A stretch of 64,000 nucleotides of DNA, taken from NCBI GenBank assembly GCA_903930145.1, contig CAIYXP010000191.1, positions 62,001-126,000 on the forward strand, in the 5' to 3' direction. The DNA is from an uncultured Methylococcaceae bacterium. Lineage in GTDB: Bacteria > Pseudomonadota > Gammaproteobacteria > Methylococcales > Methylococcaceae. Under the pieces are notes generated by a model. That model had not been told where the DNA came from and ran no database searches. It worked only from the letters and a program-made list of their open reading frames with translations. This document shows, in pieces, positions 3,441 to 33,276 of this stretch (within the stretch, counting starts at the first letter, position 1; every line of letters starts with the position of its first letter). The position numbers and the translations under genes are program-made.

Positions 3441-4316
3441 ATGACCGTACTTTGCCCTGTATGCAGTAGTTTATTGCTCGACGGATTAGTCGACTGGCAT
3501 AAAAAATGTCCTGATTGCCATTACGAGTGCAGCATCTGGTCACCTAGCATTAACGATAGCGATGCCCATGCCATGGTTGACGAAACTGGTCGATCAATCG
3601 GCTTGACAACGCTGAGGAAGGCTAATTTCAGGATTATCATTGAGCAGATAAAGGCGTTAAATATCCCTAAGAGCGTGCCAATTCTTGATGTAGGCTGCGC
3701 CCATGGTTGGTTCTTGGAACTGGCCGACAAAGAATTTGAGACGCTTGGCATTGAGCCGGACCTTAATATTTATCAGCAAACCAAAGCCAAAGGATTGCAA
3801 GTGCGCAATGGATTTTTCCCTGATGTCTTGGACGGGGGTGAACAATTTAGCCTAGTCATTTTTAATGACGTGTTGGAGCATATACCTGATGTGCTATTTA
3901 CCATAAAGGCCGTCCATAAGCACTTGGTCAACGACGGTGTCATGGTTGTCAATATACCTGTTAGTACAGGGTTTTTTTATAACACGGCAGCTAAATTATG
4001 TAAGTTTGGCATTTCAAATCCATTTGATAGACTATGGCAAGTAGGTTTCCCCTCTCCGCATATTCACTATTTTCGCGCTGATAATCTTGTTTCATTAGTT
4101 GAATCTAATGGATTTAAACTACTTAATAAGCATACCTTGCCTTCTTTGAGTTCTGATGGAATGAAAGAACGGATAGCCTACGGACATAAGCCTAACCCAA
4201 TAGTGACATGGGTTATGGTATTGATATTGAGACTATTCATGCCTCTCTTGGTTGTATTGCCAGCCGATATTGAGGTGTTTTATTTCAAGAAAGTGAACGC
4301 GACAGATAAAGAGTGA
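3441..4316 (+). CDS. Class I SAM-dependent methyltransferase with N-terminal zinc ribbon
   Basis: Starts two bases after the stop of the flippase-like gene, so it is probably translationally coupled. The N-terminus carries CPVC and CPDC pairs (a small zinc ribbon, residues about 5-26). The Rossmann core follows: ILDVGCAHGWFL (SAM-binding motif I), then LGIEPD, then FNDVLEHIPD, a Methyltransf_23-type pattern. The C-terminal third contains one hydrophobic stretch (residues about 250-275) that may contact the membrane. In glycan clusters such enzymes methylate a sugar or a lipid-linked intermediate. The substrate cannot be read from the sequence. It is the last gene of the operon. Confidence 0.85.
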   Translation: MTVLCPVCSSLLLDGLVDWHKKCPDCHYECSIWSPSINDSDAHAMVDETGRSIGLTTLRKANFRIIIEQIKALNIPKSVPILDVGCAHGWFLELADKEFETLGIEPDLNIYQQTKAKGLQVRNGFFPDVLDGGEQFSLVIFNDVLEHIPDVLFTIKAVHKHLVNDGVMVVNIPVSTGFFYNTAAKLCKFGISNPFDRLWQVGFPSPHIHYFRADNLVSLVESNGFKLLNKHTLPSLSSDGMKERIAYGHKPNPIVTWVMVLILRLFMPLLVVLPADIEVFYFKKVNATDKE

Positions 4317-4335
4317 AGGTTGACGGGGCAGGCAG

Positions 4336-4391
4336 CCTCGAAAAACGGGTCTTGTCCACGCTGAGCTTGCCAAAGCGCTAGGTATTTCGAG
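4336..4391. repeat. Inverted repeat between convergent genes
   Basis: CCTCGAAA at 4336-4343 is complementary to TTTCGAGG at 4384-4391. It lies between the convergent methyltransferase (+) and NamZ-like (-) genes. There is no adjacent T-run, so it may be a bidirectional terminator or the scar of a short repeat element. Confidence 0.3.
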
Positions 4392-4423
4392 GTTTCCGTC
4401 TCTGTGGCTTCTAAGAATTGATT

Positions 4424-5629
4424 TCAAGCATACAAACTGACTGCGTCAAGCACTTCTTGCCATGCCTTCTCGTCCGGTGCGGTCAGCGCATCCAAGTCGC
4501 CCGGGCTGGCTTCCGGCCCGTCCACCCATTCCCGCAATAGCTCGCTGCCGTTGATCAGGTCGATGGCGAGGCGGCCGTGTTCGTATTCATAAGGGAAGTC
4601 CCGCCAGAGCGGATAGTCCGGGTGGAGGTTGCGGATGGCCTTGAAGGCCAAGGCTTGCAGCCGCCACGGGCGGAAGCTGTCATGGCCGTAGGCGGGGTCG
4701 TCCACATGGATTTGCACCCCGGAACACAGTGTCCCCTTGTGCTTGTGGAACGTGGGTTCGAACCAGCAGGTTCGCAAGCGGCAGCCTTGCAGCCAATGCG
4801 GGGCCAGCCGGTGCATTTCAGCCAGTAGTTTGTCCGCATCCAAGTTGGGTGCGCCGAACAGTTCCAGAGGCCGCGTGGTGCCGCGACCTTCCGACAGGGT
4901 CGTGCCTTCCAGCATGACCGTGCCGGCGTAACAGCGTGCCATCGACAGGTTGGGCGCGTTGGGGCTGGGGTTGATCCAACTGCGTTCATTCAAGGGCCAG
5001 CCATACCCCGGTGCCTGGGCGGGTTCCCATCCCTCCATCTTAATGACGTGGCAATCGACATCCAGCCGCGCTGTGTTAATGAACCAATGCGCCAATTCGC
5101 CCAAGGTCAGCCCGTGCCGCATCGGCATGTTTCCAGCGCCGACGAAGCTTTCCCAGCCTTCGCGCAGGCGCAACCCCTCGACCGGGCGGCCCGCCGGGTT
5201 GGGCCGGTCCAGCACCCAGACCGATTTGCCAAACTTAGCCGCTTCTTCCAGCACATAGCGCAGCGTGGTGATGAAGGTATAGATGCGGCAACCCAAATCT
5301 TGCAAATCGACCAGCAATACGTCGAAGCTGTCCATCATCGCAGGGGTGGGTCGGCGGACTTCGCCGTATAGGCTGAACACCGGGATGCCAAGGGCGGGAT
5401 CAATGAAATCCGCCGATTCGACCATGTTGTCCTGCTTGTCGCCGCGCAGCCCGTGCTGGGGCCCGAAGGCGGCAGTCAGTGTGATGCCTTTAGTCGCTGC
5501 CAGTGCGTCCAGCGAGTGGACGAGGTTCGCCGTCACCGAGGCGGGGTGGGCCAGCAAGGCGACTTGGCGGTTTGCCAAGGGTTTGCGTAAGTCCGCGTGT
5601 TCAAGTAACAGGTCGATGCCGAATTTCAT
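4424..5629 (-). CDS. DUF1343 / NamZ-like family protein (exo-beta-N-acetylmuramidase family)
   Basis: The 401-residue protein matches the DUF1343 (YbbC/NamZ) family over its full length. It has the early segment VALLAHPASV, the conserved FGPQHGLRGDKQDN, then PVFSLYGEVRRPT, VLLVDLQDLGCRIYTF and VLDRPNPAGR, and the late motif LEGTTLSEGRGTTRPLELFG. The Bacillus NamZ member removes terminal N-acetylmuramic acid from peptidoglycan fragments, so a role in wall recycling is the natural inference. Many members are secreted, but no signal peptide is seen here, so this copy may act in the cytoplasm. The start is the ATG at 5629 behind AGGAGA. It is convergent with the glycan operon and has no same-strand partner. 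Confidence 0.88.
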   Translation of the reverse strand: MKFGIDLLLEHADLRKPLANRQVALLAHPASVTANLVHSLDALAATKGITLTAAFGPQHGLRGDKQDNMVESADFIDPALGIPVFSLYGEVRRPTPAMMDSFDVLLVDLQDLGCRIYTFITTLRYVLEEAAKFGKSVWVLDRPNPAGRPVEGLRLREGWESFVGAGNMPMRHGLTLGELAHWFINTARLDVDCHVIKMEGWEPAQAPGYGWPLNERSWINPSPNAPNLSMARCYAGTVMLEGTTLSEGRGTTRPLELFGAPNLDADKLLAEMHRLAPHWLQGCRLRTCWFEPTFHKHKGTLCSGVQIHVDDPAYGHDSFRPWRLQALAFKAIRNLHPDYPLWRDFPYEYEHGRLAIDLINGSELLREWVDGPEASPGDLDALTAPDEKAWQEVLDAVSLYA

Positions 5630-7786: not shown

Positions 7787-10700
7787 AGCCGGACCAACAA
7801 ACCCGACTGACCCGCCTCCGGGTAAAACGCCTCATAGCCATATTTCTCCTGCAAGGCTTTTTGCGCCCAGACATTGTTCAAATCGGTGCGGAAGTTGAAA
7901 TGCAGTTTGGGGTGGTCGCCGCCGTATTTGATGATGCGGCCAATCGCTTCGCGGTCAGGATGGTTGAAATGGTCGCCATTGGTCGAAATCAGATAACGGC
8001 GGCAGTCGAGCAGCTTCATCAGCTCGATGTTCAGATTGTTCTGGCTGGCATGGTGGGAGACTTTGAAGGCATCGAGTTTGAGCTTGTCGGCCTTGCGCTG
8101 TTTGAGCAGTTTCTGGATGGAGGCGACCAGCAGCGGCGCATGGGCATCTGCGCCAAGCAGGATGCTCTTGCCCCGGTATTCGGCCAGTACGGCAATGCTG
8201 CTGCCGTTGGGTGCGGCGGCATCGGCTTTGAACGGTGCGTCGGCGAGTTTGTCCACATCGGTGGAAGTGGACGGGGTGGCGCGCAGGAATTGGGTGAAAT
8301 CGCTGGCTTTGCCCACCGTCAACCCTAGTTTTTCGATTTCCGCCTTCCATTTTTTCGCCAGTGTGGCGAGCTTGTCCTTAGTCGGCGAGAGCAGGGTCAG
8401 GCGCATTCCGCCAGGTAGTTCGCAAACCGGCAATTCGTCGCCGTCTAGCATGATCGGCCCGCCATCGCGCCACTGATTCCAAGGCAGTTTGTATTGTTGG
8501 ATCAGCGTCGAGAATATCTCGCCCTGTTTGGCCCCCATTTTGTCTGATGGCAGATGCTCCCAGCCATTGAACCAGACATCGGCAAAGCGCAATCCTAAGC
8601 TTTGGTCTTTGAAAAACGGGATTGCGCCGCCGATGTGGTCGGCATCGATGTGGCTCAAGATAAACAACTCGAAGTCGCGTTGATTGTCCGGTTGCAGCGC
8701 GACTCGCTGTTTTAGCCGGTCATAGGTGCTGTCGGTTCCGCAATCGATCAACACGCGGGAGGTCGTTTGGCCCTCGCCATATTGCAACCATAGGCAGTCG
8801 CCATGGCCGGCGGGCAGCATTTCGATGCTTGCAAACGCTTCCCCGGAACTGGCGTGTTCCACTATGTCCGGCTGGGTGGATGGCTTTTTCTGGGTCGCCG
8901 GCTTGGTGGCGGCGGACAGTTTGAGTTTGCCTTCTATCAGGCTGTGTTCTGCCGACTTGACAGGCTCAGGCCGGGATGGCGCTTCTGTTGCGGGTAGTGC
9001 GCGTCGGCTGGACTTGCGTTGGGTCAGTAGGGCGACGAGTTCATGGGCGGTTTCGACGATGCCGCCAGCACCGTCCCATGGTGACCTTTGCTCGCCATTC
9101 CACTCGGCAAGGCCGTCCACAAACGCTTGCTGTCCCCACCATTGCGTGTAGCGCTCGAATTGCTTGCGGGTGGAAGTGATGGGGAAGGCATCGCCGGTGG
9201 CAAACAAGTTGACCAGTTCCAAAACATGCGCTTTGGCTTGCTGTGCCGCGTTATCAGGGGTTTTGCGTGTACTGCCGAGCCGCAGCAGCCACAACTCCGC
9301 CAGACTGCCGTGGGCCCATGCCCTCTCGTCGGTTGACGGGTGGTCGAGATAGGCTTCTGCGGAGAGTTTGGCCGTTTCCCATGAGCCTTCTGGCATCGGC
9401 TTGCCCAACACGACATCCATCGTGAGCATTTGCACGACCAACCAGTGCAGTGTGGCCATGCGTTGCAAGGGCTTGCCTTCATTGACGAGGAAACCCCGTG
9501 CGGCTTGGCGGTAATCGGTTCTGGCTTGTTCCAAGTAATCGCAGCACAGCAACAAGCCGTTGCGGTATTCGGGGGAATCCGGCCCCAGTCCCACACATCG
9601 TGAGTATTCCGCCTGGGCAAGCCGTTTGTTGCCACTGGCCCGCAGTCCCAAGGACTCCGCCCGGTATTCGCCCTCCAAAGGCAGCTTGTCACAGGCGGAT
9701 CGAACCGTTTTGGCACGTTGTTCATGGCTTGCGCCGTCCACTATCGCATCCCCGTCACGCACGGCCAAGTCCACCCGCTCAAGGGCTGCGCTGATGGCAA
9801 TCTTGCTTTGATGATAGCGCACCGCTTCCAGTTGACTGTCCAGGTTGTCGGTTAAAGCCTCGTAGACCACTAGGCTCGCCCAATCGTGGACCGTCTCGGC
9901 AAGATGACCGTGCAAGTTGCTGCGGATGCGGTGTAGCAGTATCCAAGGGTTGTCCCCATTCATGAGCCCCCGGTACAGGGTGCGGATCAGCGAGACCGAA
10001 CCAGTTTTGGATAGCGGGAACTGCGATGCCACCACCAACGGGATGCCGGCTAGATGTAGCGCATGGGCCAGGCTGGCTCCGGGGACTATCACCGAGCCGG
10101 CATTGCCGCTGTCGCAAGTCGCCAGTGTCACCACGGTGGGCCGGTGAATCTTGTTCCCCACGATGCGGGCCAAGGCACAGGAGAGCCGGTCGCCGGAAAC
10201 CACGTCGGTGTCGCCTTCGGCGGTGCGCAACACCAACCCGTAGGACACGTCCTGGGCATTTTGCAGCGTGTCGCCGTGTGCCAAGATGTGGATGTGGGTG
10301 TATTGGTTCTCCGCGCATTCAGTGGCGACATCCTCGAAGCAGGCGTCTTTGATGATCGTCAGCCAGTCGCCGTATTGTTCGCGGCGGCCATCCTCCGATA
10401 GGCTAGGTGTTTCAGCGCCGGGGTAAAGGAAGGGTTGGATCGCCGCCAACAGCTCGGCGCGGTGTTCTTCAAACGGTATGTTGGCCGGACTGGGGTCGGT
10501 GGCGACGAATAGGATGCGCGGACGCACCGGCCAGAGGTTGCCCTCGGATGACACGTTGCGGCTGCGGCGGGTGATGCAGACCGGCACACTGGTCTGCAGG
10601 GCCAGCCAGCTTTCGGTCGAAGCATACGGGCCCATGGGCATTTTCGCCAGTTCAAACGGCAGCAGGGCGAGTTCCGAGGCCGACAGCATCAGGCGCAAAT

Positions 10701-24932: not shown

Positions 24933-24968
24933 CTAATGCTTAATGTTTTCAATTTAAGGAAGGACTGG

Positions 24969-27794
24969 ATGACTAAAACTCAAGCTTATCATCGCCGGGC
25001 TTGTCGATGGGTTTTGACTGCCGTTTGCGGACTGGCATTGATCGGTTGCGATAAATTTTCCCAGAAAACCCCGCAGCAGCATGTCGAGAAGGCCAAGGCA
25101 TATCTCGATGCGGGCGATTTGAAGAATGGGAGCATCGAATTGAAGACCGCATTGCAGCAACAAACCGACTTGGTGGAGGCTCGCCGCTTGCTGGGCCAGA
25201 CCGATTTGGCGATGGGCAAGGGTGCGGACGCGGAAAAGGAACTGCGCCAAGCTGTCAGCCTAGGCTTGGCTAGGCGTGTCGTGTTGCAGGATTTGGCAGA
25301 AAGCTTGGAAATGCAAGGGAAATTTAAGGAAATCCTGGATGAAATCACGGTTGAGCCCTCCCTGCTTCCGTTTGAACAGGCTTATGTCCATGTCTATCGT
25401 GGTAATGCGCTGCTGGCGTTGGGGCAGTTGGAGCAGGCGAAAACCGAATATGAGGATGCTTTGCATGCGAACCCCGCGTCCCCGTTCGCCATGGTCGGTT
25501 TGGCCCGCTTGTCGATTGCTGATAAAGACTTGGCAAAAGCGGGGCGCTGGTTGGATGAGGCGGTCAAGGCCGGGCCCAAGGAGGCCAAGGTGTGGAGCTT
25601 CCGTGGCGACTATTTCAAGGCCAAGGAGGAACCCGACATTGCCTTGGAAAGTTACACCAAAGCCATCGAGCTTGGCCGGAATAATTTTGTAGATAGGGGC
25701 AACCGGGCGTTGATTCTGCTCGACATGGGAAAATACACGGAGGCGGCGGAGGATGCCCGGGTGCTGCGGCGGGATGCGCCCAACTTCTTCGCGGGCCACC
25801 TCGTCGAGGGTTTGCTTGCGCTGACGGACAAGGATTATGCCAAGGCGCAGGCCGGGTTGCAGGAGGCGATGAAGCAGAACCCGCGCTACCTCCCGCTCTA
25901 TTATTACTTGGCCTATGTCCATTTGATGCAAAACCATCTCGAACAAGCCGACCAATTGCTCAGTGAGTTTTTGAAAGGTTTGCCGAACTCGGTGGGCGGT
26001 CATGCGTTGATGGCGATGACCAAGCTCAGGCTGGGAGATTATGCGGGGGCTAGGCAATACGCTGAGCCGTTGTTGAAGGCTGCGCCCAAGGACCCCGGCG
26101 CGGTGCAGATCATGGGGCTGATCGATTTCGCCCAGGGCGACCGGGACTCGGCGCTTAAGTTACTGGAGAAAGCGGTCATTCTCGACCCGAAATCAGCCTA
26201 TCCCCAACTTGCCATGGGGCTTGCCCTGTTAGGCAAGGGCGAGAAAGAAAAGGGAATTGCGGCGATGGAGGCGGCAGTCAAGTTGGACGAATCCAACGCC
26301 GATGCGTGGAGTATCCTCGCTTTGACCGAAATCGAGCAGCGCCAGTACGACAAGGCTAAAACAACCATAGCCGCAATGAAGGCGCGCCAACCGGACAGCC
26401 CCCTACCTTTGGATTTGGAGGGTACCTTGCACTCCGCGCAGGGGCAGGCGAAGCAGGCGAACGAGAGCTTCCAAGCGGCTTGGGCCAAGTCAGCCGGGAA
26501 CCCCATGGCAGGTTTGAATCTGGCGAGGCAGGCGATGGCCGCCAACAAAATGGATGAGGCGAGGGGTTATTTGGAAAAGATACTTGCCCTCCATCCGCAG
26601 GACTTGAATGCGCGGTTGACCCTAGTGGAGTTGGATGCCGCCCAAGGCAGGTACGCAGAAGCCCAGGCTAGGCTGGAAGACACGGTCAAGCAGTTTCCGC
26701 AAGCCGTGCAACCCCGTGTCATCCTAGCCCGCCACTTTGTCCTATTCGGGCAACCGCAGCAGGCGCTGCCCTTGCTCAAGGAGATTGCGGCTGGCAACCA
26801 GGGCGACCCCGTGTTTTTGGAAACCTACACACAGGTCTTGGTGGAAAACCGTCAGGGGGACACCGCCATCGAGTCCGCCAAGGAGTGGGCGAGGCTCAAA
26901 CCCGGGTCCGCCGAGGCCCATTATTGGCTGGCCCGCGCCTATGCCGATAGTGGGCAAGCCCTGAACACATCGCTGGAATTGGATCGGGCGCTGGCGATCG
27001 ACCGCAATCTGGTGTCTGCCAGGATCATGCAAGTTCAAACGATGGGCCAGAATAGTCCAGACAAGGCCGTCCAACTGATGGATGAGTTGCGTCGCGACCA
27101 CCCCGACAATGTCCAAGTTTTGACGCTGGCGGGTTGGCTGGCGCGGCAAAGGAACCAGATGCAAAGTTCCTTGTTGGCCTACCAGCAAGCTTTCGACAAG
27201 TCCAAGACCCATGAGACAGTGACCAACTTGGCGCAGGCGCAATGGTTTTCCGGGCACAAGGAGCAGGCTGTCTCCACCTTGGAAAAATGGCGCGAACAAT
27301 ACCCGCAGGATTGGGCGGCCCGCGTTGTGTTGTCGGGCATGTATGCGGATTTAGGGAAAGAGCGGGAGGCTTTGGCAGAGTTGGAGAAAGCGAGCAAGTC
27401 CGCCCCGTCGAATCCTGTGATCCTCAACGAACTGGCTTGGCGGCTGCGCAAAAGCGACCCTTCCGCCGCACTCAATCATGCCGAAAAAGCGTATGCCATC
27501 GCCCCGAACGACCTGACCATCCTCGACACGCTGACGGCATTGTTAACCGACACTGGCGCGAAGGAGCGGGCTTTGCGCTTGCTGCGGCAGTCGCGCAAGC
27601 AAATGTCAGGAAATTTTACACTTCGCTTCCACTATGCCGCGGCCTTGGCAGAGGCGGGGGACTCGCGTGAAGCCATGCGCGAGTTGCAAGACTTGCTGTC
27701 GGTTGGCGGCTCCTTCGCCGAGCGGTTGCAAGCCGATGAACTGTTGAAAAAACTATCCGACCAAGAGCGCGAGCGTGAAAAGGAACAAGAATAG
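24969..27794 (+). CDS. prsT: PEP-CTERM system TPR-repeat lipoprotein PrsT
   Basis: 941 residues from the ATG at 24969, which follows AAGGAAGGAC; an in-frame ATG at 24936 is upstream of this site. A lipobox (LTAVCGLALIGC) is followed by DKFSQKTPQQHVEKAKAYLDAGDLKNGSIELKTALQQ, the conserved opening of PrsT (TIGR02917). Roughly twenty tandem TPR units fill the rest (GNALLALGQLEQAKTEYEDAL, LRLGDYAGARQYAEPLL and others). Such proteins accompany exosortase/PEP-CTERM loci and exopolysaccharide genes and are presumed to be scaffold proteins. No exosortase gene (epsH) is present in this window. The stop codon lies within the target-site duplication of the MITE downstream. Confidence 0.9.
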   Translation: MTKTQAYHRRACRWVLTAVCGLALIGCDKFSQKTPQQHVEKAKAYLDAGDLKNGSIELKTALQQQTDLVEARRLLGQTDLAMGKGADAEKELRQAVSLGLARRVVLQDLAESLEMQGKFKEILDEITVEPSLLPFEQAYVHVYRGNALLALGQLEQAKTEYEDALHANPASPFAMVGLARLSIADKDLAKAGRWLDEAVKAGPKEAKVWSFRGDYFKAKEEPDIALESYTKAIELGRNNFVDRGNRALILLDMGKYTEAAEDARVLRRDAPNFFAGHLVEGLLALTDKDYAKAQAGLQEAMKQNPRYLPLYYYLAYVHLMQNHLEQADQLLSEFLKGLPNSVGGHALMAMTKLRLGDYAGARQYAEPLLKAAPKDPGAVQIMGLIDFAQGDRDSALKLLEKAVILDPKSAYPQLAMGLALLGKGEKEKGIAAMEAAVKLDESNADAWSILALTEIEQRQYDKAKTTIAAMKARQPDSPLPLDLEGTLHSAQGQAKQANESFQAAWAKSAGNPMAGLNLARQAMAANKMDEARGYLEKILALHPQDLNARLTLVELDAAQGRYAEAQARLEDTVKQFPQAVQPRVILARHFVLFGQPQQALPLLKEIAAGNQGDPVFLETYTQVLVENRQGDTAIESAKEWARLKPGSAEAHYWLARAYADSGQALNTSLELDRALAIDRNLVSARIMQVQTMGQNSPDKAVQLMDELRRDHPDNVQVLTLAGWLARQRNQMQSSLLAYQQAFDKSKTHETVTNLAQAQWFSGHKEQAVSTLEKWREQYPQDWAARVVLSGMYADLGKEREALAELEKASKSAPSNPVILNELAWRLRKSDPSAALNHAEKAYAIAPNDLTILDTLTALLTDTGAKERALRLLRQSRKQMSGNFTLRFHYAAALAEAGDSREAMRELQDLLSVGGSFAERLQADELLKKLSDQEREREKEQE

Positions 27795-28084
27795 TGGTCA
27801 GCAATTCTCATTATGGCTAAAACGCCGTCATTCCGGCATGGACTGCCGGAATCCAGTGCCATGGACGGTAACTTGTCGGTGCATAAGTGTCTGATTAAAC
27901 AGGAATGGCAAATCCTAGTTTCACGTCCATGTGACTGGATGCATTCGGAACATCCCTGTCCCGAACCCTACGGGCGGCTGGCCTAAGCAAATCGGCTGTC
28001 CTGCCGATTTGTCCTGCTTCCCGGCAGGAATGACGGGTTATACATCAACGCTTTGCCTCATAATGAGAATTGCTGAATAGTGGT
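27790..28084. mobile_element. MITE-like element of 277 bp with 9-bp target-site duplication
   Basis: The element (27799-28075) has inverted ends: CAGCAATTCTCATTATG at the left and, at the right, GCCTCATAATGAGAATTGCTG (reverse complement CAGCAATTCTCATTATGAGGC). It is flanked by the direct repeat AATAGTGGT at 27790-27798 and 28076-28084. It has no coding capacity for a transposase. Inside are sub-terminal inverted sequences (CGTCATTCCGGCATGG near the left end, GGCAGGAATGACGGG near the right end). It inserted at the very end of prsT: the TAG stop is part of the duplicated target, so the gene remained intact. Confidence 0.88.
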
Positions 28085-28102: not shown

Positions 28103-28120
28103 TGTCAGTAAATTTTACAG
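28103..28120 (+). promoter_or_regulatory. Putative enhancer site 1 (TGTCA-type motif)
   Basis: TGTCAGTAAATTTTACAG. The core GTAAA-T-TTTAC is an inverted repeat. The motif recurs at 28289-28306 and lies about 270 bp upstream of the sigma-54 -12 element, a usual distance for an activator of the NtrC/PrsR type. Confidence 0.5.
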
Positions 28121-28288
28121 CCAGTTTGCATGGAAAATCGATGAATTGTCGCCATGGGCTGGATTGCGGCCAAAAAACAAAAGCCGATACCTTGACAAGT
28201 GAAGAAAAATCTATATTATCTATATTAAATGATTGTTTTTTTATAGAAAGCAGTGTAATGACTTGAATAGTTGCTTTACATCGAAAGC

Positions 28289-28306
28289 TGTCAAAAAATT
28301 TTACAC
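28289..28306 (+). promoter_or_regulatory. Putative enhancer site 2 (TGTCA-type motif)
   Basis: TGTCAAAAAATTTTACAC, matching site 1 in TGTCA and in ATTTTACA with the same spacing, about 75 bp upstream of the sigma-54 -24 element. Confidence 0.5.
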
Positions 28307-28378
28307 TTAGTTTTGCGCAAGATTTTAGCTTAAAAAAAACCGCGTTTAACCAATTGACATTTATGTTTTTTTTGTTTA

Positions 28379-28394
28379 TGGTACAAATATTGCA
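28379..28394 (+). promoter_or_regulatory. Putative sigma-54 (-24/-12) promoter
   Basis: TGGTACAAATATTGCA has the essential GG (28380-28381) and GC (28392-28393) separated by exactly ten bases and matches TGGCAC-N5-TTGCA apart from one base. It lies 56 bases upstream of the ATG of the PEP-CTERM protein gene. PEP-CTERM genes in other bacteria are known to be under RpoN and the PrsK/PrsR two-component system. Confidence 0.65.
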
Positions 28395-28449
28395 TTATAG
28401 TGATGACGAAATTTGCTCCAGCCCCCTTATATATAGGAAGTAGTTTGAT

Positions 28450-29409: not shown

Positions 29410-29450
29410 AAACCCGGTCTTGTACCGGGTTTTTTTTGGGGCGCCCCAAA
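29410..29450. terminator. Intrinsic terminator and adjacent palindrome
   Basis: ACCCGGT and ACCGGGT form a stem followed by eight T residues (29430-29437). This is directly followed by the perfect palindrome TTTGGGGCGCCCCAAA (29435-29450). Transcription of the plus-strand PEP-CTERM gene should stop here. The palindrome could serve the converging flavoprotein gene as well. Confidence 0.88.
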
Positions 29451-31152: not shown

Positions 31153-32016
31153 TCAAGTCGGGCCAAATGACCCGCAAGGCTCGCCTTGCCAGTGTTCACA
31201 ATTTTTGGTGAGGCAGACCTTGTGGATCCGGGGTTTTTTGAAGTCTACCACAGGTGTGGTGGGTTGACGATATTCGACGAATTCCTCCACGGGCGGCAGG
31301 ACTTGGGCCGCAGCTTTGCCCGTATGCCTGTCGGTCAAATCGGATGCCCGACAGTAATGCACGTAAAGGTTTTTCCGGTGAAATGCCTGCAAGGCGTGAT
31401 GCGTGCTGAACAGATGAAGCGGAAAATCCGACAGGTCGAATTTGTAGGGGAAGCGCTGTCCGCGGAAAAGGGTTTTATCGCCAATTTGTGGGCAGTTGAT
31501 GCCCATTTTTCTGATGACTTTGGCGAGCGATGGGCGGCAGAGGAAATAAATCTTTTGTGCCTCGCATTGCCTGGAGTATTCTATGCCTGCGGAAATGGCG
31601 TTGAATACCAGGCACATGTCGGGGTCGTCGGTATCGCCCGTCGGTTTTCTGATGATTTTTTGGAATGGCCGTATGATTGCCAGCCTGGAAAATTCGACGA
31701 CGGTTTTTTCCGGGTGCGGCCTGTGGTTATGGGTGATGTGGGCATGTTGGTGGATGGGCAGGTTATGCAATTTGTCGATGATCAGGCGAAATGTGCCAAC
31801 CCACTGGTTGTCAGCCCTGTGTCTGATTAAGAAATGCACTGACTGGTCGTCGTATTCATCCTTTTCCATCTCGTCCGGGAATTTTCTGGCTTCCTCGTAG
31901 CCCTTTTCGATGCAGTAAATCTGATAACGGAGGTTAAAGTGGATGTTTTTGCTCTCTTCCGTATTGGCCAAAATGACATCATACCCCGTCGTATTTTTGT
32001 TTATATGCGTATGCAT
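31153..32016 (-). CDS. PEP-CTERM/exosortase-associated acyltransferase (N-acyl amino acid synthase type)
   Basis: About 288 residues. The acyl-homoserine-lactone-synthase-like GNAT fold shows as FNLRYQIYCIEKGYEEARKFPD, HFLIRHRADNQWVGTFRLI and VVEFSRLAI, followed by AISAGIEYSRQCEAQKIYFLCRPSL. This is the TIGR03694 family found with exosortase systems. Environmental members make long-chain N-acyl amino acids. The frame could start upstream, but the ATG at 32016 (after GGGGTCAG) begins where homology is expected; no strong ribosome-binding site is seen. It is divergent from a paralogous gene at 32539 and is followed by the flavoprotein gene. Confidence 0.87.
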   Translation of the reverse strand: MHTHINKNTTGYDVILANTEESKNIHFNLRYQIYCIEKGYEEARKFPDEMEKDEYDDQSVHFLIRHRADNQWVGTFRLIIDKLHNLPIHQHAHITHNHRPHPEKTVVEFSRLAIIRPFQKIIRKPTGDTDDPDMCLVFNAISAGIEYSRQCEAQKIYFLCRPSLAKVIRKMGINCPQIGDKTLFRGQRFPYKFDLSDFPLHLFSTHHALQAFHRKNLYVHYCRASDLTDRHTGKAAAQVLPPVEEFVEYRQPTTPVVDFKKPRIHKVCLTKNCEHWQGEPCGSFGPT

Positions 32017-32538
32017 GTTTACTGACCCCATTAAAAAGTAAGTACCATAATGGTAAAAAGAATGACTTTTGCACTTGGCCTCTTTCTGTAGGCGGGCTTT
32101 GAGTGCTGGAAACGAGTAATTTCGAACTGGGCGGCAGAGGCTTGATGACATTCAGGCTAAAACAAGGCGACACATGACCCGCCTTGTTTGGATGCAACGT
32201 ACCCATGAGCCTGTGCAGCCCAGTCGCGAACCAAGATCCGTTGATTTAGCTCTACATTTCCCTACCTCTTCGTGGGAGGGTCCTGTTTAGTTTTGGGGAA
32301 AGTGTTATTGTAAGGAATAAGGCCTGTATGGACAAATAAAACCCTGCGGTGGGCTTGTCTTTGCAGGGGTTATTGTGTTGGCGGTGTCAGATGTCTGCAA
32401 AAACCGACAATTCCAACTGCCGCCCTAGCTTGCAAAGTACGCGCTTTTTAGGCTTTGAGTGGGGAGAGAAAGCAGTGCGTCCGCATTTGCTTTCATTGTC
32501 TGGCATCCTTTTGGTTGGTGTGCGATACTTATCAAATT
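32017..32538. promoter_or_regulatory. Divergent intergenic region between the two acyltransferase genes
   Basis: A non-coding stretch of about 520 bp. It must contain two promoters, neither of which is clear-cut. It includes a terminator-like hairpin at 32340-32372. No TGTCA...TTTTACA motif or GG-N10-GC sigma-54 site like that before the PEP-CTERM gene was recognised here. Confidence 0.35.
32340..32372. terminator. Hairpin in the divergent acyltransferase spacer
   Basis: ACCCTGC (32341-32347) pairs with GCAGGGGT (32363-32370), allowing one bulge. Its position inside a divergent spacer is unusual for a terminator, so it may be a leader structure of the plus-strand gene. Confidence 0.4.
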
Positions 32539-33276
32539 ATGAGCGATTACTTTAAAACCTTTTCCCAGTACTTTAACGTCCTTCCCGCCAATAACCCGGA
32601 ACTGTTGCGGCAATCCATGTCGTTACGCTACCAAGTATATTGTGTGGAACAATGCTTTGAAAGCCCCGGGCGATATCCCGACTGTTTGGAATGCGACCAT
32701 TTCGACGGGGTCTCCAAGCATTCCTGCCTTAGGCACTTAGCCAGCCAGCAGTTGGCAGGGACCGTGCGTTTGGTTTTGGTGGATCAAGCCTATCCCGAGC
32801 GGCTGTTTCCCATGGAGGAGCATTGCGAAATCCAGCCAGAATTCAAGAAAGTCATTGAGAGTTACCCTCGAAAGCAAATAGCCGAAATATCGCGCTTGGC
32901 CGTTTCTAAAGAATTTCGTAGGCGTGCCAAGGAGGCCGAGACGGTGCATGGCATCGTCGATCATGACGAGATGGAGCGACGGAGGGAAGAGGAGCGCAGA
33001 ACTGTTCCGCAGATCACTTTGGGATTGTTCCAAGGGATTATAACCATGAGTAAAGAGAGTGACATAAAACTTTGGTTTGCCGCCATGGAGCCGCAATTGC
33101 TCCGGTTGCTGAAGCAATTCGGCATTCTGTTCACACAAGCAGGGCCTACGGTCGATTATCACGGGAAGCGCATACCCTGCATTGCCAGGGCAGATGAACT
33201 GATGGATGGAATCAAGCAAAAGCGCCCTGATGTCTGGGATTTCATCACCCAGCACGGCAAGAACGTACCCGGCTAA
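32539..33276 (+). CDS. Second PEP-CTERM/exosortase-associated acyltransferase
   Basis: About 245 residues. LRQSMSLRYQVYCVEQCFESPGRYPD, HSCLRHLASQQLAGTVRLVLVD and IAEISRLAVSKEF mark the same TIGR03694 family as the gene on the other strand. A GLFQGIITMSKESDIKLWFAAMEPQLLRLL segment matches the later half of the fold. The frame extends upstream to 32455, but the ATG at 32539 begins the conserved domain. The two divergent paralogues differ substantially in sequence, so they probably have different substrates. Linked to the PEP-CTERM sorting locus by family and position. Confidence 0.87.
   Translation: MSDYFKTFSQYFNVLPANNPELLRQSMSLRYQVYCVEQCFESPGRYPDCLECDHFDGVSKHSCLRHLASQQLAGTVRLVLVDQAYPERLFPMEEHCEIQPEFKKVIESYPRKQIAEISRLAVSKEFRRRAKEAETVHGIVDHDEMERRREEERRTVPQITLGLFQGIITMSKESDIKLWFAAMEPQLLRLLKQFGILFTQAGPTVDYHGKRIPCIARADELMDGIKQKRPDVWDFITQHGKNVPG

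Follow-up and report, generated by a model that had tools for sequence, protein, structure and literature searches.

A predicted PrsR-type sigma-54 promoter ahead of a PEP-CTERM gene in a Methylococcaceae genome, and the helical spacing of its enhancer box

Haft et al. described in 2006 a PEP-CTERM cis-element in which a 17-nt motif 1 ending in TTTACA, sometimes repeated, is separated by 62.8 +/- 10.6 bp (range 32-92) from a sigma-54 motif 2 that in turn lies 71 +/- 38.5 nt (range 23-221) from the start codon (PMC1569441). The element was found in Proteobacteria that have PrsR, PrsK and PrsT, never within coding regions, and PrsR was proposed as the protein that binds it, a proposal supported by the phylogenetic profile presented in that study (PMC1569441). 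Two further systems bear on this element. The pepA gene of Aquincola tertiaricarbonis RN12 depends on RpoN1 for its transcription; its start has been mapped, and an enhancer is predicted upstream (PMC9850573). In Desulfovibrio vulgaris five of five predicted PEP-CTERM targets were enriched by DAP-chip with DVUA0057, a PrsR homologue (PMC3333781). For other activators, sigma-54-dependent qrr and synthetic enhancers have been found to be sensitive to the DNA helical repeat, and natural qrr enhancers carry an indel fingerprint (PMC4740811). Here we analyse a 64-kb stretch of DNA (the window) from an uncultured Methylococcaceae bacterium, together with the rest of its genome and the genomes of related bacteria.

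Boxes and promoter elements in the window

A pattern search of both strands of the window found exactly three copies of the 17-nt box TGTCA-N5-TTTTACA, against a chance expectation of 0.01 per window; three copies arose in 0 of 100 shuffles. The two intergenic copies (Table 1) had been picked out in the initial annotation, although with a central gap of N4-5 that is in fact N5 in both, and at about 75 and 270 bp from the promoter, distances that come to 73 and 259 bp when measured from the end of the box to the TGG of the sigma-54 element. The third exact copy, inside prsT, had been overlooked. The sigma-54 element stands as first annotated, with strict GG-N10-GC spacing in a TGGCAC/TTGC context. 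Its sequence, TGGTACAAATATTGCA, differs from TGGCACRNNNNTTGCW by one mismatch, and it is the single match in the window to TGGYACN5TTGCW. By itself such an element is weak evidence, with 0.21 expected per window; a box and a sigma-54 site at the spacing seen here were observed together once, with 0.00 expected. No Rfam family was found at the locus.

The product of the gene downstream of these elements also matches TIGR02595 (22.6, cut-off 16) and PF07589 (29.7 bits, cut-off 20.7), and has a signal peptide and a VPEPDSLALFGIGAVGL...RRRKLA sorting tail. A search of 60 genomes for orthologues of this PEP-CTERM protein found just one close relative.

Table 1 Features of the promoter region and its surroundings (window coordinates)
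Feature	Position	Strand	Basis or remark
prsT, TPR lipoprotein of the XrtA/PEP-CTERM system, second genomic copy	24936..27794	+	TIGR02917 664.7 bits, cut-off 312.2
Third PrsR-type box (predicted)	27604..27620	+	TGTCAGGAAATTTTACA; exact match within prsT coding sequence; role uncertain
MITE-like insertion, 277 bp	27799..28075	.	Terminal inverted repeats and apparent 9-bp target duplication AATAGTGGT
Distal PrsR-type box (predicted)	28103..28119	+	TGTCAGTAAATTTTACA; exact match
Sigma-70-like promoter (predicted), possible second or basal promoter	28192..28219	+	TTGACA-N16-TATTAT, 11/12 matches; between the two intergenic boxes
Proximal PrsR-type box (predicted)	28289..28305	+	TGTCAAAAAATTTTACA; exact match
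Sigma-54 -24/-12 promoter (predicted)	28379..28394	+	TGGTACAAATATTGCA; GG-N10-GC spacing
Likely ribosome-binding site	28435..28440	+	AGGAAG; sequence
EDSAP-1 family PEP-CTERM protein, 309 aa	28450..29379	+	NF041538 137.3 bits, cut-off 100
Probable intrinsic terminator, closing a one-gene unit	29410..29437	+	AACCCGG...CCGGGTTTTTTTT; sequence; absent from the pattern-scan list
PEP-CTERM/exosortase system-associated acyltransferase	31153..32151	-	TIGR03694 149.2 bits, cut-off 111.95
Second PEP-CTERM/exosortase system-associated acyltransferase	32455..33276	+	TIGR03694 275.8 bits, cut-off 111.95

The nearest named relative that we found is an uncultured Methylococcaceae MAG whose prsT is 76% identical. 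This sister MAG keeps both intergenic boxes (the distal one at its position 8878, the proximal one, CGTCAGTTATTTTTACA, at 9079) and the sigma-54 element, which there reads TGGTATAAATATTGCA, while the N5 letters and the surroundings are altered. The prsT-internal box is found there at 8666 with one mismatch, and comparison with the sister gene indicated no excess conservation of this box, which lies at the 72-78th percentile of the gene's own level. The MITE-like element, inserted at the prsT stop between prsT and the promoter, has 18-bp inverted repeat arms (27798-27815 and 28059-28076) flanked by the apparent target duplication (27790-27798 and 28076-28084); partial copies occur in three other stretches of the genome, and the element is absent at the site in the sister MAG. 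Were this insertion taken out, the three boxes would follow one another at intervals of some 190-215 bp here, as in the sister MAG.

PrsR and the box across the genome

The presence of prsK and prsR, which the initial annotation had named as a check, was borne out: the genome encodes PrsK (686 bits, cut-off 300) and PrsR (683 bits, cut-off 502.6), in tandem on contig C7 with the other copy of PrsT (723 bits), every one above cut-off. About a dozen further proteins contain an NtrC-type AAA+ activator domain, and from these many sigma-54 activator homologues we take rpoN to be probably present.

Exact boxes number 14 genome-wide. Judged by position, 13 of them, all but C279:2145, have a PEP-CTERM gene no more than about 1 kb away, and pairs of a box and a sigma-54 site, 52-74 bp apart, stand ahead of five PEP-CTERM genes, four of them above cut-off and one cut by a contig end. 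The proposed enrichment of the motif ahead of other PEP-CTERM genes thus survives, but the link between the box and this gene class is partial. PEP-CTERM matches above the Pfam cut-off number 60 in the genome, the majority of these roughly 60 genes have no box, and a box lies within 500 bp upstream in 5 of the 73 PEP-CTERM genes scanned (the upstream region is nearly complete for 57 of the 73). PrsR is therefore not a general PEP-CTERM regulator here, which suggests that most PEP-CTERM genes in the genome are controlled by some other route.

Several boxes lack a promoter partner. Some are second upstream copies (C191:90103, C258:6556 and C160:1160) and some lie after a PEP-CTERM gene (C258:5462, C483:6996 and C483:7112); the prsT-internal box and two boxes on contig C427 are likewise without a partner. 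The two boxes on C483 are oppositely oriented and lie beyond the stop of the PEP-CTERM gene, and the 7112 box seems to have a counterpart in genome G001 (C153:85087-85177). A TGG-N10-GC next to the 7112 box was considered as a promoter and dropped as a poor sigma-54 match (4 mismatches). Boxes with one mismatch were set aside as mostly chance matches, since the genome has 39 boxes when one mismatch is allowed, the 14 exact ones included, and the reversed control has 21. The two predicted PrsR boxes on C427 (4725 and 5164) lie upstream of a gene for a PAS/SpoIIE-type phosphatase (3541-4653) and are without a clean sigma-54 element; the neighbouring gene is divergent, and its 781-aa product carries a PEP-CTERM tail that scores slightly under cut-off.

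Box-promoter spacing and co-occurrence with PrsR across genomes

In 311 genomes of the order Methylococcales we searched for TGTCA-N5-TTTTACA-N(36-97)-TGG-N10-GC, a pattern that fixes the box core and the TGG/GC, so that weaker boxes go uncounted. The search returned 247 box/promoter pairs, and the reversed-pattern control only a handful. Spacers in these pairs cluster at 42, 52.5, 63.2, 73.6, 83.9 and 95 bp, with almost none at 67-70 and 88-93 bp, and the spacer of the proximal box in the window belongs to one of the two main helical-phase classes. The best period is 10.7 bp (R 0.66, against a maximum of 0.33 for the jittered null), and R is 0.60 when one value is taken per genus and spacer. 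Common descent was tested as an explanation for the phasing and set aside, because one promoter per genus (29 genera) gives a mean R of 0.69 (99.9% of the null, 0.48) and because the phasing recurs outside the order: 58 pairs from other genomes of the taxonomic class show the spacer classes 52, 63 and 74 again, R being 0.68 at a period of 10.5 bp where the null reaches 0.42 at most. What this analysis adds is that the distance from box to start signal amounts to whole helix turns across hundreds of genomes; we found no earlier report of helical phasing of PEP-CTERM boxes in the open-licence papers searched.

Orientation is similarly constrained, as boxes 50-80 bp from the promoter are forward in 203 cases and reversed in 21, about 10:1. 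The reverse boxes were considered as functional sites and discarded as mostly chance, 52% being in phase where a uniform spread would give 39%; three are near-identical copies at 51 bp. For the 21 distances from distal to proximal box, helical phasing was not convincing (R 0.39), and many of these distances fall at 164-186 bp. Among the letters that the search pattern leaves free, G follows TGTCA at 0.80, and the sigma-54 consensus is recovered: TGG is followed by C (0.74) and A (0.66), and GC is preceded by T (0.90).

Pairs and PrsR occur together in 93 of the 311 genomes, pairs alone in 21, PrsR alone in 34 and neither in 163, which corresponds to an odds ratio of 21 (p 1e-29) over related genomes that are not independent. 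Some of the 21 genomes, out of 114 with pairs, that have no PrsR above cut-off are incomplete MAGs. Two assemblies of one genus, rated 95-100% complete, have pairs yet no PrsR above cut-off. Of 71 complete ORFs downstream of the pairs, at least 41 end in a PEP-CTERM tail as recognised by a strict pattern, which misses the VPLPA-type tails present in the same ORF list. In three genomes of one genus a phased pair stands ahead of a gene whose 297-aa product lacks a PEP-CTERM tail, a candidate PrsR target of another kind. The longest ORFs after three other pairs resemble, by eye, a sugar transferase, an NtrC-type regulator and another regulator.

Interpretation and comparison with known systems

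We conclude with high confidence that the locus belongs with the PrsK/PrsR-controlled sigma-54 promoters predicted by Haft et al. in 2006 and that it drives a one-gene PEP-CTERM operon. The computed features behind this conclusion are the parts themselves, their conservation in the sister genome, the proximity of boxes to PEP-CTERM genes, the co-occurrence with prsR, the phased spacers and the fixed orientation; given these, PrsR is the probable binder of the boxes, and sigma-54 polymerase probably transcribes the PEP-CTERM gene. The initial annotation had put the box forward as a candidate PrsR site. The presence of prsR and prsK, the proximity to PEP-CTERM genes and the DAP-chip data for the D. 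vulgaris homologue support that idea, which is not a new one, as the box and PrsR as its proposed binder had already been described by Haft et al. In the mechanism that we envisage, PrsK would phosphorylate PrsR, which would bind the 17-bp box at 28289, with help from the 28103 box and possibly from the copy in prsT. PrsR would then contact sigma-54 RNA polymerase at 28379-28394 across 73 bp and open the promoter through ATP hydrolysis.

Chance resemblance in AT-rich intergenic DNA has in its favour the frequency with which the sigma-54 element alone is expected, but the counts of boxes and of the pair far exceed expectation, the boxes are kept in the sister MAG, and boxes genome-wide lie near PEP-CTERM genes, so that this reading is in effect refuted. 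It is very improbable that an NtrC-type activator other than PrsR binds the box. Many sigma-54 activator homologues are encoded in the genome, and pairs occur in genomes without PrsR above cut-off, but the strong co-occurrence of pairs with PrsR, the published phylogenetic profile (PMC1569441) and the DAP-chip results for the D. vulgaris homologue (PMC3333781) all argue for PrsR.

We also regard it as unlikely that the sigma-70-like promoter accounts for most transcription of the PEP-CTERM gene, with the sigma-54 element minor or unused in most conditions. The sister MAG has a sigma-70-like promoter with identical hexamers and spacing (8976-9003), and a run of 17 nt left unchanged in the intergenic alignment takes in the -10. 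Against this, 1.9 such sites are found per shuffled region, so that finding one is unremarkable in itself, and the box and the sigma-54 element are conserved too, recurring with phased spacing at hundreds of loci. The two promoters are not mutually exclusive, and the sigma-70-like one could provide PrsR-independent basal transcription.

To return to control by PrsR, the phased spacers and fixed orientation lead us to infer that PrsR and the polymerase stand in a fixed rotational relation over a short stretch of stiff DNA, and that box and promoter must probably keep a set rotational phase. We lean, with some reserve, towards a strict rule in which the box has a fixed orientation and lies whole helical turns from the -24 element, PrsR acts across short stiff DNA in a fixed register, and the extra boxes (some 165-210 bp further up, in prsT, and after PEP-CTERM genes) serve as auxiliary enhancers. 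If the phase rule is true, lengthening the DNA between box and promoter by 5 bp should act oppositely to lengthening it by 10 bp. Taking phase and orientation into account makes the search of genomes for PrsR targets more specific and brings up candidates other than PEP-CTERM genes. For a methanotroph lineage, our findings support the 2006 prediction of how exopolysaccharide-associated PEP-CTERM proteins, which are sorted to the slime layer of the cell, are switched on.

Among the known systems, the DVUA0057 regulon of D. vulgaris belongs to a distant lineage, and the study of it validated no binding motif; the work on qrr and synthetic enhancers concerns other activators and does not cover PrsR boxes. 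The Aquincola pepA gene resembles the gene studied here in having a sigma-54 promoter ahead of a PEP-CTERM gene and a predicted upstream enhancer, but its -24/-12 element is TGGCAC/CTGCTT and its product is the floc-associated PepA, whereas the gene here encodes an EDSAP-1 family protein. The closest likeness is to the element of Haft et al.: the box agrees with the published text description of motif 1, the 73 bp to motif 2 and the 55 nt from there to the ATG both fall within the published ranges, the downstream product has a PEP-CTERM domain by all three models above cut-off, and PrsR, PrsK and PrsT are all encoded in the genome. Repeated boxes, a one-gene PEP-CTERM operon and a PrsK-PrsR-PrsT tandem are shared as well. 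The two intergenic boxes conform to the earlier observation that sites do not occur in coding regions, but the box in prsT does not, and isolated boxes are found here upstream of, and even after, PEP-CTERM genes. Finally, whereas the spacer was described there by a mean, standard deviation and range, here it is clustered by helical turns, with the orientation of the box fixed.
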